DNA from: a virus
Length of the DNA: 22,586 bases
Reading direction: 5' to 3' (one strand)
IMG/VR virus record: IMGVR_UViG_3300006753_000084
Location: 1 to 22,586 of that record
In this document: piece by piece, positions 1,775 to 7,737 of the stretch
Position numbering within the stretch: the first letter of the stretch is position 1
How the letters are laid out: every line of letters begins with the position of its first letter
Position numbers and translations under genes: made by a program
Notes under the pieces: model-generated
Told to the model about the DNA's origin: nothing
What the model saw: the letters and a program-made list of their open reading frames with translations, nothing else
Database searches by the model: none

Positions 1775-2047
1775 ATGAGAGATGAACGGAAGGCGTTGGC
1801 GCATCTTTTGGCGCGCGCGGAGATTGATCGAGAGAACCTGCTGGCGTCTGTCGAGGCGAATGGTAGGTTCGATACTGCGATCGAGGCACTGGCGGTGTTT
1901 TTCTCCTATGTGCTGGCGGAGTATGATGATGCCGGGGAGGCCGGCCCCTCCGAGCCTAGCGGGTTCCGAGTTGTTTCGGACCCCGACGAGATGTTGCTGC
2001 TTTTACTCCAGCAGTGGGAGCCGTCAGATGGTTGTACTAGGCATTGA
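1775..2047 (+). CDS. Small hypothetical protein (90 aa)
   Basis: Encodes a 90-residue mostly helical, acidic protein with no family I recognise. An in-frame ATG at 1760 would add five residues, but GGAGG (1762-1766) sits inside that extension and is spaced eight bases from ATG 1775, so 1775 is the better start. The 3' end overlaps the resolvase gene by 20 bases, suggesting co-translation. Position between the replication ATPase and the resolvase suggests DNA metabolism, but this is only inference from context. Confidence 0.65.
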   Translation: MRDERKALAHLLARAEIDRENLLASVEANGRFDTAIEALAVFFSYVLAEYDDAGEAGPSEPSGFRVVSDPDEMLLLLLQQWEPSDGCTRH

Positions 2048-2510
2048 CCCCGGCGCGACCGGCGGGTTGGCGGTTGTCAGCACTGCCCCCGACAGGCTCC
2101 CCCTGCTGGAGGAGGCCATGCTGATGCCGATGTGCAAGCGAGGCAATAAGAACATCGTCGACGCCGAGACGCTGCACAGGTGGCTACTGGCGTGGTCCAT
2201 CGATCAGGTCGTGATCGAGCAGGTCACCGCATTCGGGATGGGTCTGGCCACCGCATTCGCATTTGGCAGGAGCTGCGGATCGGTGGAGACGGTGGCGCAG
2301 CTCATATGTCCGCGCATCGAGTGGGTCACGCCGAATGTTTGGAAGAAACATTTCCAGCTCCCCGGCGGTAAAAGAAACAAGCAGGCCAGCCTCGATCTGG
2401 CCAAGCGCAAGTTCGGCGAGATGCCGGCATGGTCGCTGAAAAAGAACGACGGCATCGCCGAGGCCGCGCTGATGTGCCAGTGGTTCCTCGACAGGAACGC
2501 CAGAATGTGA
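2028..2510 (+). CDS. RuvC-like Holliday junction resolvase
   Basis: A 160-residue RNase H-fold nuclease of the RuvC type, expected to cut four-way or branched DNA and so resolve replication/recombination intermediates before packaging. Motifs in order: GIDPGATGG at 5-13 (Asp7), VVIEQV at 61-66 (Glu64), and KKNDGIAEAALM near the C terminus (Asp141, Glu145), the four acidic residues expected for two-metal catalysis. The length matches RuvC proteins (about 160-175). The frame runs further upstream, but ATG 2028 with GGGAG seven bases before it aligns exactly with the family N terminus. It overlaps the preceding gene by 20 bases. Cellular RuvC and phage RuvC-like enzymes are not separable by eye. 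Confidence 0.85.
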   Translation: MVVLGIDPGATGGLAVVSTAPDRLPLLEEAMLMPMCKRGNKNIVDAETLHRWLLAWSIDQVVIEQVTAFGMGLATAFAFGRSCGSVETVAQLICPRIEWVTPNVWKKHFQLPGGKRNKQASLDLAKRKFGEMPAWSLKKNDGIAEAALMCQWFLDRNARM

Positions 2511-2523
2511 TAAGGCCCACGGC

Positions 2524-3279
2524 ATGGCAAAGCATCACTATGTCTATGCTCTAACCGATCCGACCAAGCTCGGTGCGCCCTTCTATATCGGGAAGGGCAG
2601 CGGCGATCGGAAGGTTCAGCATTTTCGCTCAGTCTCCAAGGAGATGGCCGGGGCGGAGACCAGTGCCAAATTCAAACTGATCAAGAGCATCCGCGACAAA
2701 GGTTTGCAGCCGGGTGCCATCGTCCTGTCGCACCATGACGACGAGGAGGCCGCGCTCAAGGAGGAGCGTAAGGTCATAAAGAGGATTGGCGTCGAGAACC
2801 TTGCCAACAAATCAGCCGGTGGCGAGGGCGTAAAGACCAAGAAGAAACGCAAGGACGATAAGAAGCTGACTGCCAAGCAGGCACATTTCTGCCTACTAGT
2901 TGCGGGCGGCACGACCGGATCGGTGTCTGACTGTTACCGCGCGGCGTACCCCGGCGGCAAAGCTTCTAAGAAGACAGTCAACGAGGCATCATCGAGGTTG
3001 ATGGGAAATTGCAAGATTGCTGCAAGGATTGCTGAGCTGAGAGCGCCCGCCGTCAAGCAAACTCAGTATGATCTGGCATGGTGTCTGCAGCGACAGCGTG
3101 ACGCAGTGGATTTGGCTGAGGAGACTGGGAACGCCGGAGCGATGAGCGGCGCGACGCGGGAGATCGGCAAGCTCGGCGGCATCTACCCATCGGAGAAGCA
3201 GGAGCTGACCATCAGGGCGGACGACCTGGCGGTGCGGCTGCAACAGGGCCGAGCACGGTTGGCGGAGGACAAACGATGA
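2524..3279 (+). CDS. GIY-YIG nuclease / terminase small subunit fusion
   Basis: A 251-residue protein with two apparent domains in one uninterrupted frame. Residues 1-102 look like a GIY-YIG nuclease of the LEM-3-like type: YVYAL (6-10), FYIGKGSGDR (20-29), His33, an acidic helix with Glu80/Glu81, then LANKSAGGEG (93-102). A basic linker (KTKKKRKDDKK, 104-114) follows. Residues 115-173 match the Terminase_2 small-subunit pattern: LTAKQAHFCLL, a CYRAAYPGG turn, ASSRLM and AARIAELR. The C-terminal 80 residues are helical and charged. TerS recognises phage DNA and recruits the large subunit, and its place just before TerL supports that. The nuclease domain may cut at the packaging site or be a homing remnant; that is inference. 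Start ATG 2524 has AAGG eight bases upstream. Confidence 0.8.
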   Translation: MAKHHYVYALTDPTKLGAPFYIGKGSGDRKVQHFRSVSKEMAGAETSAKFKLIKSIRDKGLQPGAIVLSHHDDEEAALKEERKVIKRIGVENLANKSAGGEGVKTKKKRKDDKKLTAKQAHFCLLVAGGTTGSVSDCYRAAYPGGKASKKTVNEASSRLMGNCKIAARIAELRAPAVKQTQYDLAWCLQRQRDAVDLAEETGNAGAMSGATREIGKLGGIYPSEKQELTIRADDLAVRLQQGRARLAEDKR

Positions 3280-3485
3280 GGATGGAGCAGAACGAGGGCG
3301 TGGGGCCGGGAGAGGCGTCACGATCTAACAATCACCGCTGGGGCAACCCCCCGCCGGGCAGCGGCACGATGCAGGTCTGCACCCAGTGCGGCGAGAAAAA
3401 GACGGCGTACACCGATCGGGCTGAGTGCGTCGGCAGGCCGGCGACGGGGCTGGCCGAGACGCTGCACGACTACGAGCCGATATAG
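3276..3485 (+). CDS. Small CxxC protein (69 aa)
   Basis: A 69-residue protein squeezed between the terminase genes. It begins inside the TerS stop (ATGA) with GGAGG seven bases upstream, and its stop overlaps the proposed GTG of TerL (TAGTG). It has a Gly/Pro-rich N-terminal third, then C35-x2-C38 and C51, suggesting half of a zinc ribbon, and no recognised family. A second in-frame ATG lies at 3282. Coupling on both sides argues that it is translated; a role in packaging is inferred from position only. Confidence 0.55.
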   Translation: MRMEQNEGVGPGEASRSNNHRWGNPPPGSGTMQVCTQCGEKKTAYTDRAECVGRPATGLAETLHDYEPI

Positions 3486-4981
3486 TGAGCAGCGTCGCCG
3501 ACGACCCCGAAGGGGAGTTGGTCGACGCGATGGCCGGCTTCTACGCCGACCCGCTGGGGCATGTCCTGTTCTCGTATCCTTGGGGCGGCGCGGGCACCGA
3601 GCTGGAGGGCCGCACTGGGCCAGACGACTGGCAGCGGGAGTTCCTGATCGAGCTGGGCAACGAGGTCACCAAGCGGCGCTTCGATGGCGTCAACGCCGTC
3701 AACCCGATCCAGTTCAGCACTGCCAGCGGGCACGGCATCGGGAAATCCTGCCTGTCCGCGTGGATCATACGGTGGATAGCCGACACGCGGCCCGGCAGCG
3801 CCGGCACCATCACCGCGAACACCGCCGAGCAGCTCCGCACCAAGACCTTCGCCGAGCTGGCCAAGTGGCACAACATGGGGATCACCAAGCACTGGTACGT
3901 CCTAAATGCCGGCACCGCTGGCAGTCTGAATATGTACCACAAGTCGAACCCGAAGCGATGGCGGTGCGACGGCCAGACCTGCAAGGAGGAGAACAGCGAG
4001 GCGTTCGCCGGGCAGCACCGAGACACCTCGACGTCGTACTATCTGTTCGACGAGGCCGGCGGCATACCAGAGAAGATATTCGAGGTGCGCGACGGCGGCC
4101 TGACCGACGGCGAGCCGATGACGTTCGACTTTGGCAACCCGACACGGAACACCGGGCGCTTCCATGCCAACATGCTAGGAAAGAACCGCAACCGTTTCAT
4201 CAAGCGGTTCATTGACAGCAGGTCAGTGGCCATCACCAACAAGGCGTACCTGCAGCGCATGATCGACGACTATGGGGTCGACAGCGACGTCGTGAAGGTC
4301 CGCGTGCTCGGGCAGTTCCCAAGCGCGTCGACGTATCAGTTCATCAGCACCGACGACGTCGACGCTGCGATGCTGAGAGAGATGACATCGAGCGAATACA
4401 ATTTCGCGCCGGCCATCATAGGCGTCGACCCGGCGTGGACGGGAGAAGATGATTTTGTAATCCAGCTCAGACAGGGAAACAACTCGAAGACGTTGGGCGT
4501 TTACGCCCGCAACGACAACGACGTGCAGATGGCGCAGCTGATCGCGCAGTTCGAGGACGACTACAAAGCCGACGCTGTGTTCGTCGACGGCGGGTTTGGC
4601 ACCGGCATCATCAGCGTCGGGCACACGATGGGCCGACACAAGTGGCAGATCGTATGGTTCAGTGACAAGAGCATGGATCCCGGATGCACGAATAAGCGGG
4701 CTGAGATGTGGGAGCAGATGCGTGTCTGGTTGAAGGAGGGCGGCTGCCTCGAAGAGGACGAGATCATGCGCAGCGACCTGACCGGTGTCGAGCTGACGCC
4801 TCGCCTCGACGGCAAGAAGCAGCTCGAAAGCAAGGAGCACATGAGGAGCCGGGGGTTGGCATCGCCCAACAAGGCCGACGCTCTGGCGCTCACGTTTGCG
4901 TTCCCAGTCGTGGCGACGCGGGTGCCGTACAACCCGCACCAAGAGGCGGTGATGCAGCACGACTACGACCCGATGCCCTAG
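3485..4981 (+). CDS. terL: Terminase large subunit
   Basis: The packaging motor ATPase and DNA-cleaving nuclease that feeds DNA into the head through the portal. Numbered from GTG 3485 (498 residues): ATPase Walker A-like SGHGIGKS at 81-88, Walker B YYLFDEA at 185-191 (Asp189, Glu190), and a coupling-like FGNPT at 216-220. The C-terminal RNase H-fold nuclease shows IIGVDPAW (Asp315), AVFVDGG (Asp368) and NKADALAL (Asp465). I chose GTG 3485 because it overlaps the upstream stop by one base and gives a normal N terminus. A GTG at 3425 would add 20 residues and overlap the previous gene by 61 bases. There is no strong Shine-Dalgarno site at 3485, consistent with coupled translation. Confidence 0.93.
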   Translation: MSSVADDPEGELVDAMAGFYADPLGHVLFSYPWGGAGTELEGRTGPDDWQREFLIELGNEVTKRRFDGVNAVNPIQFSTASGHGIGKSCLSAWIIRWIADTRPGSAGTITANTAEQLRTKTFAELAKWHNMGITKHWYVLNAGTAGSLNMYHKSNPKRWRCDGQTCKEENSEAFAGQHRDTSTSYYLFDEAGGIPEKIFEVRDGGLTDGEPMTFDFGNPTRNTGRFHANMLGKNRNRFIKRFIDSRSVAITNKAYLQRMIDDYGVDSDVVKVRVLGQFPSASTYQFISTDDVDAAMLREMTSSEYNFAPAIIGVDPAWTGEDDFVIQLRQGNNSKTLGVYARNDNDVQMAQLIAQFEDDYKADAVFVDGGFGTGIISVGHTMGRHKWQIVWFSDKSMDPGCTNKRAEMWEQMRVWLKEGGCLEEDEIMRSDLTGVELTPRLDGKKQLESKEHMRSRGLASPNKADALALTFAFPVVATRVPYNPHQEAVMQHDYDPMP

Positions 4982-5863: not shown

Positions 5864-6001
5864 ATGGTGAACCTCGCACGCAAACCCAGCTCGGGAGGTG
5901 GCACGCTCATCGGCGGCGACACTGATCGTGTCGATTACCCGACGGTGTTTCTCACAGATGAGCAGGTCGACGACACGGTCCTGTGGGATGCGGCAGCATA
6001 A
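5864..6001 (+). CDS. Small hypothetical protein (45 aa)
   Basis: A 45-residue frame filling the gap between the poly-proline protein and the portal. ATG 5864 lies two bases after the previous stop, and its TAA overlaps the portal ATG (TAATG). The product has a basic Ser/Gly-rich start (LARKPSSGGGT) and an acidic C-terminal half (TDEQVDDTVLWDAAA). No family recognised. Exact packing between neighbours and GC-rich third positions support it as coding. Confidence 0.5.
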   Translation: MVNLARKPSSGGGTLIGGDTDRVDYPTVFLTDEQVDDTVLWDAAA

Positions 6002-7737
6002 TGCCTATCATCAACCCCGGTAACCTCGGAGAGAACATCCCGCCGCACGGCAAGAAGTCGACGGTGCTGCGCCGGTACGTCAAGCTGGAGAACGACCGCA
6101 CGTCGTGGCGCAACCATTGGATGGAACTCAGCGACTACCTCCTGCCGAGGCGCGGTAGGTTCCTGTACACGTCACAGAACGATCGAGGCAAGAAGCGCCA
6201 CAACAAGATCATCGACAGCACCGGCACGCAGGCGATCAGAACGATGGCTGCCGGCATGATGTCTGGCATGACCAGCCCGGCGCGGCCATGGTTCCGGTTC
6301 ACGACCGGAGACGAGGCCACGATGGACAACCATCAGGTCAAGGTCTGGCTGGCGGAGGTCGAGCGTATCTGCCGCACCATCCTGCACAAGTCGAACTTCT
6401 ACAACGTCTCCTTCACCGTCTACTCCGAGCTGGGAGCGTTTGGCACGGCACCGCTGTATCGACAGAAGAGCTTTGACAGCGTCATCAGGTTCCGGCCCTT
6501 CACGGCTGGCGAGTACGTCATCGCCGAGAACGACCAAGGCGTCATCGACACGCTGGGCCGGTCGTTCACCATGACCGTGTCGCAGGTCATCGAGAAGTTT
6601 GTCATCAAGTCGCAGCACGGTGTCGACGACTGGACCGGTGTCAGCCGCGCGACACGCAACCTGTGGAACAACAAGAGCTACGACGAGCTGGTGCCTGTCA
6701 TACATATGATCGAGCCGCGCCGCAAAGCCGAGCGCGATCCCAAGAGCTTCAGCAACGTGCATATGCCGTTCAAGTCGGTCTACATGGAGCAGGGCAGCGA
6801 CAACGATGCAGTCCTATTCGAGGGCGGCTTCAACCGCTTCCCGGCGTACATCCCCCGCTGGGATGTGCTGCAAGGCGACGTGTACGGTCGATCGCCCGGC
6901 ATGGACAGCCTCGGCGACATCAAGCAGCTGCAGCAGCAACAGAAGCGCAAGGCGCAGGCCATCGACAAGATGGTCAACCCGCCGATGACCGCGCCGACTT
7001 CGCTGCGCGGCAAGCCTTCAAGTGTGCTGCCGGGCGGTACGACATACGTTGATCCGCTGCAAGGCGGCCAAGGGTTCGCGCCGGCCTATCTGGTGCAGCC
7101 GCGCCTCGGTGAGATGCAGCAGGACATCCAAGAAGTCCAAGAGCGCATCCAGCGAGGTTTCTATGCTGACCTCTTCGCCATGATGATCAACTCCGATCGC
7201 CGTAACATCACGGCGACAGAGGTCATCGAGCGGCAAGAGGAGAAGCTCGTACTGCTGGGTCCAGTTCTACAGCGCCTCAATGTAGAGCTGCTCGATCCGC
7301 TGCTCGATGACGTCTTTCAGTTTGCGCTGGAGGCCGACCTCCTCCCTGAGTCTCCAGAGGAATTGCAGGGCGTCGATCTGCGCGTAGAGTACGTCAGCTT
7401 GCTGGCGCAGGCCCAGCAGGCTGTCGCCGCCAGCGCGCTCGAACGAACCTTGGGGTTCGCCGGCAACCTCGCCGCTGTCTTCCCAGAAGTCTCCGATAAC
7501 ATCGACGCCGACGCGGGCCTCCGGCAGTACGCCGAAATCCTTGGAAACTCGCCGGATCTTCTCCGCGACAGCGGGCAGGTTGAGCAGCTGCGTGCCGATC
7601 GCGCGCAGGCGCAGCAGCAGCAAGAGGCAGCAGCGATGGCCGGCCAAGCGGCGCAGGGCGCGAAGGTCTTGAGCGAGACCGACACGCAGCACCCAAACGC
7701 GCTGACCGATCTGTTGGGTAGAGGAGGGAGCGTCTGA
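6001..7737 (+). CDS. Portal / T7-type head-tail connector
   Basis: Forms the ring at the packaging vertex through which DNA enters and leaves and to which the adaptor binds. The product is 578 residues, close to the usual 500-600 of the T7-like connector family (Head-tail_con). The N-terminal signature is typical: NDRTSWRNHWMELSDYLLPR, then GTQAIRTMAAGMMSGMTSPARPWF. The C-terminal third is Gln/Ala-rich and helical (a run of QAQQQQEAAA), as expected of the portal barrel. ATG 6001 overlaps the previous TAA; a GTG at 5983 would add six residues but is less attractive. The stop overlaps the next start (TGATG). Confidence 0.94.
   Translation: MPIINPGNLGENIPPHGKKSTVLRRYVKLENDRTSWRNHWMELSDYLLPRRGRFLYTSQNDRGKKRHNKIIDSTGTQAIRTMAAGMMSGMTSPARPWFRFTTGDEATMDNHQVKVWLAEVERICRTILHKSNFYNVSFTVYSELGAFGTAPLYRQKSFDSVIRFRPFTAGEYVIAENDQGVIDTLGRSFTMTVSQVIEKFVIKSQHGVDDWTGVSRATRNLWNNKSYDELVPVIHMIEPRRKAERDPKSFSNVHMPFKSVYMEQGSDNDAVLFEGGFNRFPAYIPRWDVLQGDVYGRSPGMDSLGDIKQLQQQQKRKAQAIDKMVNPPMTAPTSLRGKPSSVLPGGTTYVDPLQGGQGFAPAYLVQPRLGEMQQDIQEVQERIQRGFYADLFAMMINSDRRNITATEVIERQEEKLVLLGPVLQRLNVELLDPLLDDVFQFALEADLLPESPEELQGVDLRVEYVSLLAQAQQAVAASALERTLGFAGNLAAVFPEVSDNIDADAGLRQYAEILGNSPDLLRDSGQVEQLRADRAQAQQQQEAAAMAGQAAQGAKVLSETDTQHPNALTDLLGRGGSV

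Follow-up and report, generated by a model that had tools for sequence, protein, structure and literature searches.

A GIY-YIG nuclease domain fused to a small terminase subunit beside the large terminase gene in uncultured phages

The stretch analysed here, which we call the window, is a 22.6-kb fragment of viral DNA from IMG/VR (record IMGVR_UViG_3300006753_000084, positions 1 to 22,586). It carries, in this order, genes for a replicative helicase, a RuvC-like resolvase, a GIY-YIG nuclease domain joined in one chain to a small terminase subunit (TerS), a short CxxC open reading frame (ORF), a large terminase subunit (TerL) and a podovirus-type portal protein. The third of these, hereafter the fusion, occupies positions 2524–3279 of the plus strand and is a frame of 251 codons without interruption, with an ATG start, encoding a protein of 27.3 kDa. 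It opens with a LEM-3-like GIY-YIG nuclease domain (2524–2829, residues 1–102) that contains Y6, Y8, Y21, R29, H33, K49, E81 and N95. A basic, flexible linker (2830–2865, residues 103–114, VKTKKKRKDDKK) leads into the TerS half, about residues 115–251. This half begins with a DNA-binding helix-turn-helix (HTH) domain (2866–3051, residues 115–176), continues with two helices that probably form an oligomerisation hairpin (3064–3177, residues 181–218; helices 184–201 and 204–218 in the predicted structure) and ends in a C-terminal tail (3157–3276, residues 212–251) that is a probable TerL-docking element.

By base composition alone, an open frame of 251 codons has a chance of P ~3e-4 at 60.5% GC; the real argument for the ORF is its conservation. 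IMG/VR was scanned with the window protein and with alignments of its relatives, and the full-length fusion was found in ~40 other contigs from many samples, at 37–100% identity, along with a few truncated copies. The single frame that a first-pass annotation of the window had read from the letters is thereby borne out, and the survey of homologues that it had proposed shows the same fusion. The same annotation had named an assembly join at about position 2830 as one way in which this reading could fail; such an artefact is ruled out, because independent contigs contain the same full-length ORF. We also considered whether TerS might be made separately from an internal start. The window lacks a start codon close to the junction, and no such codon is conserved, which makes the fusion probably the only form of TerS produced. 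The RNA fold at the gene start is nothing unusual (z 0.38).

Profile searches returned two different families for the two halves. Residues 1–102 matched Pfam LEM-3_GIY-YIG (PF22945) with an E-value of 3.5e-13 and a score of 50.3 bits (curated cut-off 27 bits), and PHROG 5356 at 4e-14, in agreement with the LEM-3-like signature first noticed in the sequence; the second half matched PHROG 51. The PF22945 match also exceeded the cut-off in 5/5 other fused lineages scanned. Each fused genome searched holds one LEM-3 GIY-YIG match, and unfused genomes hold none. In the first half, the residues that never vary among 28 fused proteins are Y6, Y8, D12, P13, F20, Y21, G23, K24, G25, R29, K49, G60, A77, E81, I85, L93, N95, G99, G100 and G102. 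In human ANKLE1, mutation of Y453, Y486, H498, K519, E551 or N565 cuts activity, from 61-fold to undetectable (PMC10287932). These six residues map to Y8, Y21, H33, K49, E81 and N95 of the window protein, and the spacing is also as in ANKLE1, with His 12 residues after the second Tyr and Asn 14 residues after Glu. The catalytic set is therefore complete by sequence, as had been proposed; the Glu first placed at residue 80 or 81 is there, and is precisely E81, followed by N95. Y8, Y21, K49, E81 and N95 are invariant in 28/28 fused proteins and H33 is present in 25/28; E81 and N95 are the likely metal-binding residues. The Y6-x-Y8 pair and Y21, all invariant, make up the GIYxY-YIG form with a third tyrosine that has been described in CMoRE (PMC12923530).

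From counts of synonymous and non-synonymous changes, the ratio dN/dS of the nuclease half is ~0.03–0.23, below that of the TerS half in most pairs. These values indicate purifying selection on the nuclease half, stronger than on the TerS half in most pairs, which argues for a working domain under selection and no decaying insert. Catalytic competence of the GIY-YIG domain appears to be the best explanation. It could instead be that TerS retains the fold for binding DNA or for regulation and that the domain catalyses little or nothing: I-TevI is also a transcriptional repressor (PMC10448857), and one clade of fusions (L062, L063, L064) lacks the catalytic His. The remaining catalytic residues, E81 and N95 among them, are invariant in every protein compared, however, and we regard a non-cutting domain as very unlikely.

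The TerS assignment of the second half rests on PHROG 51 ('terminase small subunit'; residues 91–194, 2.3e-13), on a match to the solved Pam5 small terminase (5e-11 with the family profile, 8e-5 with the window's own TerS half) and on fold, because Pfam Terminase_2 alone stays sub-threshold (0.02). The domain first called Terminase_2-like thus stands as a small-terminase domain, though not by that Pfam model. There is good support for counting the protein both as a GIY-YIG family member and as a small terminase. The fusion is the gene in the TerS slot upstream of TerL, and the slot holds no other TerS. In unfused relatives the slot is taken by a short ORF of ~95–150 aa (PHROG 11043, 'unknown function'), and a profile built from the final 40 residues of the fusion matches most of these short ORFs at 2e-7 to 3e-4. 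Since they lie in the TerS slot and have the C-terminal tail of the fusion in common, the PHROG 11043 family is probably a small terminase; the common tail is most simply read as a TerL-docking element. Members in the slot include L061 3410–3697, L080 4334–4648 and L107 4436–4810.

An AlphaFold2 model computed from a 28-row alignment has a mean pLDDT (predicted local distance difference test) of 75.9 and a low pTM (predicted template modelling score) of 0.39. The basic linker that the first-pass annotation had placed between the halves is poorly predicted at residues 102–111 (pLDDT <50); together with the low pTM, this describes two domains without fixed relative placement. In comparisons with solved structures, the first half has the expected GIY-YIG fold: it aligns with the I-TevI catalytic domain at Z 10.3 (2.5 Å over 93 residues), with PD-T4-3/CMoRE at Z 9.0 and, at values below 8, which can reflect a common arrangement, with T4 EndoII (Z 7.7) and UvrC (Z 7.4). 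The same caution applies to residues 115–176, which align with the DNA-binding domain of the SF6 small terminase at Z 7.1 (2.2 Å) and 6.7; in this case several TerS entries come up together, and the evidence from sequence points the same way. Residues 114–219 align, at lower quality, to the PaP3 and NV1 small terminases. Like the small terminases of SF6/SPP1, PaP3, NV1 and Pam5, the fusion combines an HTH DNA-binding domain with a helical core and is encoded upstream of TerL. Those proteins have no nuclease domain, whereas the fusion is a 27-kDa protein with a GIY-YIG domain in front.

The genes on either side bear on what the nuclease might do. Directly upstream lies a RuvC-like Holliday junction resolvase gene (2025–2510, plus strand; PHROG 1770, 8.1e-19), preceded by the replicative helicase gene, which runs past the left end of the window (its homologue in L030 is 731 aa). 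One reading is that the fused domain clears branches, like ANKLE1 and SLX1, trimming those of the concatemer as TerS and TerL load DNA. Among Pfam families the domain is nearest to the LEM-3-like one, ANKLE1 acts specifically on branched DNA (PMC7610144, PMC10287932), and the resolvase next door links this gene region to branch handling. Beyond the Pfam family, the fusion has the six catalytic residues and both spacings in common with ANKLE1/LEM-3; it differs in that those enzymes cut branched DNA in animal cells, whereas its own partner domain is TerS. The branch-clearing job seems taken, because a RuvC-like or RusA-like resolvase gene lies beside nearly every fusion with enough upstream sequence, and we find this reading quite unlikely. 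A GIY domain that substitutes for the Holliday junction resolvase is rejected on the same observation. Among relatives, the resolvase beside TerS is nearly always one of two kinds, RuvC-like (as in the window) or of the small PHROG 244 (RusA-like) type; examples are L061 3061–3390 and L147 4660–5004.

Downstream, TerL (~3491–4981, plus strand, start codon uncertain; PHROG 2, 4.5e-31) is of the epsilon15 type, with 45% identity across the full length to epsilon15 TerL. The Walker and nuclease residues of TerL are intact, in fused and unfused lineages alike. We therefore reject the idea that the GIY domain replaces a dead TerL nuclease, since the catalytic Asp residues are in place. The fusion had been placed directly before TerL; it does lie upstream of TerL and in the packaging module, with the 69-aa CxxC ORF (zinc-ribbon-like; 3276–3485, plus strand) intervening. 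The module is marked by the portal, or head-to-tail connecting, protein (5983–7737, plus strand; PF12236, 2.7e-167). No PF01844 HNH gene was found in 25 records from fused and sampled unfused relatives, so a GIY domain standing in for a packaging HNH protein is unsupported.

Wherever the contig reaches far enough, a TerL of this same family is encoded downstream of the fusion. After dereplication at 97%, the family comprised 59 TerL lineages, of which 23 are fused. On the TerL tree the fused state requires ~6 changes, at least 5 of them forced by well-supported branches, and in the clade of the window all lineages (9/9) have the fusion. All fused members are metagenomic. Among 50,697 phage records, no cultured phage had a fusion covering at least 80% of the window protein; with L072 as the query, coverage above 80% was reached only in two Erwinia SNUABM_22 entries, which join a GIY domain to a different C-terminal part. 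In bacteria, neither a scan of GTDB contigs nor 754 genomes from two classes yielded a fusion.

LEM-3 GIY-YIG genes also occur near terminases in other forms. In L158, the nuclease (487–999) and TerS (977–1411) are separate, overlapping genes before a different, unrelated-looking TerL, which makes this locus an unfused counterpart of the fusion; one scan for further split loci of this type returned L158 alone. A free-standing gene lies a few genes upstream of TerL in RHph_Y1_10 (L029 3995–4576, MN988487) and directly upstream of it in ctHz2215 (L192 3831–4445, MW202485), and in three large phage contigs (L155, L156, L174) one lies ~3.6–7.5 kb from TerL. L029 and L192 are two cultured or complete small phages, and the C-terminal ~80 residues of their GIY-YIG proteins look alike, with no match to a TerS family. 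Because homing-type nucleases cluster near terminases (PMC10448857), capture of a free GIY-YIG gene is a natural origin for the fusion, and its GIY domain probably derives from a free-standing gene of this terminase-clustering kind. Domains have also been swapped within the fused gene: in L137, a TerS half resembling that of L063 carries a foreign GIY half (48% vs 92–96%), and the difference between L062 and L063 is almost confined to the HTH domain (54% vs 92–98%). The loci concerned are L062 3433–4227, L063 3475–4224 and L137 1509–2333.

These patterns bear on whether the fusion is a homing nuclease, retained or recently domesticated, which plays no part in packaging and still propagates both itself and its TerS allele. 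Such an enzyme would be guided to its DNA by the TerS half and would cut co-infecting phages in their terminase regions. The free-standing genes near terminases elsewhere, of the sort published for homing-type nucleases, would fit, as would the scatter of the fusion on the TerL tree and the swapped GIY half of L137. The order of parts is identical to that of I-TevI, the nuclease of the phage T4 td intron: nuclease, linker, HTH part. To this likeness is added the fold match given above. I-TevI differs in having a homing-site binder at its C-terminus, where the fusion has a small terminase, encoded in a packaging operon. Unlike the situation with I-TevI, we saw no intron or empty allele at fusion loci; close relatives, a small sample, included no near-identical alleles without the GIY domain, and the window's clade is uniformly fused. 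GIY distances, moreover, track those of TerL as well as HTH distances do (Mantel r 0.62 and 0.64, respectively). We hold homing without a packaging role to be unlikely. The first-pass annotation had offered a packaging nickase and a domesticated homing nuclease as alternatives; they may be successive stages of one history.

The reading that we favour is that the fusion is a working TerS with a competent GIY-YIG nuclease, which cuts near the packaging site to help TerL. We give it a probability of about 0.5, and a role in packaging is our leading inference. The TerS half would bind the packaging site, probably as a ring, and its conserved tail would dock TerL. The tethered GIY-YIG domain would then nick or cut DNA near the site bound by TerS, and this cut would help TerL to make or start the packaging cut. 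A ring of fused subunits would carry several nuclease domains. Cutting would presumably fall at the genome ends. In favour of this reading are the catalytic set, the low dN/dS, the presence of I-TevI and TerS folds in one chain and the tail held in common with the short TerS-slot ORFs; further support comes from the ~40 contigs beside the same TerL family, the single GIY-YIG match per fused genome, the neighbouring genes of L158 and the precedent of HK97 (below). A stronger version, which we put forward only tentatively, makes the TerS ring itself a site-directed nuclease with a GIY-YIG active site in each subunit, so that TerS would make the cut that defines the genome end and TerL the others.

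Several observations weigh against a nuclease that helps packaging. The unfused relatives have the same TerL family and evidently package without a GIY domain, so the domain is no universal need of this TerL type. H33 is missing from the L062, L063 and L064 clade. No conserved DNA site was found near the gene, in that five members of the clade had no identical run of at least 14 bases. Finally, there is no need for both halves to be tuned to a common site, because in L137 the GIY half has been swapped while TerS and TerL stayed constant relative to L063. Overlapping contig ends (55–127 bases) look like assembler k-mers and are hence uninformative on genome ends.

A functional precedent is found in HK97. 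Its HNH protein gp74, whose gene lies next to those of the terminases, stimulates cleavage at cos; gp74 may cut one strand and TerL the other (PMC11331095, PMC9410871). In both systems the terminase complex has an additional nuclease, next to it or built into it. In HK97 this nuclease is a separate protein of HNH fold, whereas in the fusion it is a GIY-YIG domain within the TerS chain, whose cutting we infer. The likeness to the HNH helpers is functional and not one of descent. The closest solved GIY-YIG domain by sequence is that of PD-T4-3/CMoRE, a type IV restriction nuclease, with a profile match of 4e-22 and ~35% identity. The solved CMoRE chains match only the GIY half, and the fusion has TerS in place of the modification-sensing domain and acidic loop. 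The fusion is neither a CMoRE nor an HNH system. This resemblance, and a match to the PADLOC PD-T4-3 model, could suggest a weapon against host, satellite or rival-phage DNA recognised by the TerS half, much as the nuclease PD-T4-3/CMoRE acts in defence. Against this, the gene occupies the TerS slot within the packaging module, and we think this the most improbable of the readings.

Under the current view, small terminases are recognition subunits of ~15–21 kDa and the enzyme activity of packaging lies wholly in TerL (review PMC9611059). This division of labour is broken by a TerS in which a nuclease domain is fixed and under selection throughout a broad group of phages; one molecule instead of two may recognise and cut DNA in a widespread group of uncultured phages. 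The open-access literature that we searched holds no description of a GIY-YIG to TerS fusion, a result of that scope and no proof of absence; this silence and the review's account of TerS support novelty without proving it. The fusion is a real, conserved and selected architecture, undescribed in that literature. It would offer a single-chain system in which to study the making of the packaging cut and the action of accessory nucleases such as HNH gp74. It may also show a nuclease gene beside the terminases becoming part of the packaging machine, as free, overlapping and fused forms all exist.

Three further observations concern annotation and the surrounding genes. The PADLOC PD-T4-3 model (PDLC04031) matches the GIY half of fused TerS proteins (2524–2943 in the window) at 2.3e-11 to 3e-18, and fused phage terminases may, given this match, be mislabelled as a defence system. 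The CxxC ORF is kept in most loci with this TerL family, whether or not they carry the fusion, where an ORF of 59–73 aa with a PHxWG-PPPG-G...CxxCG pattern separates TerS from TerL (window 3276–3485; L072 4231–4434; L061 4254–4472). It matches no PHROG or NCBIfam model and is an undescribed protein of the packaging module. Sporadic genes of the HNH_3 type lie close to the terminases in a few relatives, namely in the record behind L038 (G005:C1:6981–7106) and in L084 (2691–3179), which fits a hot spot for nuclease genes.
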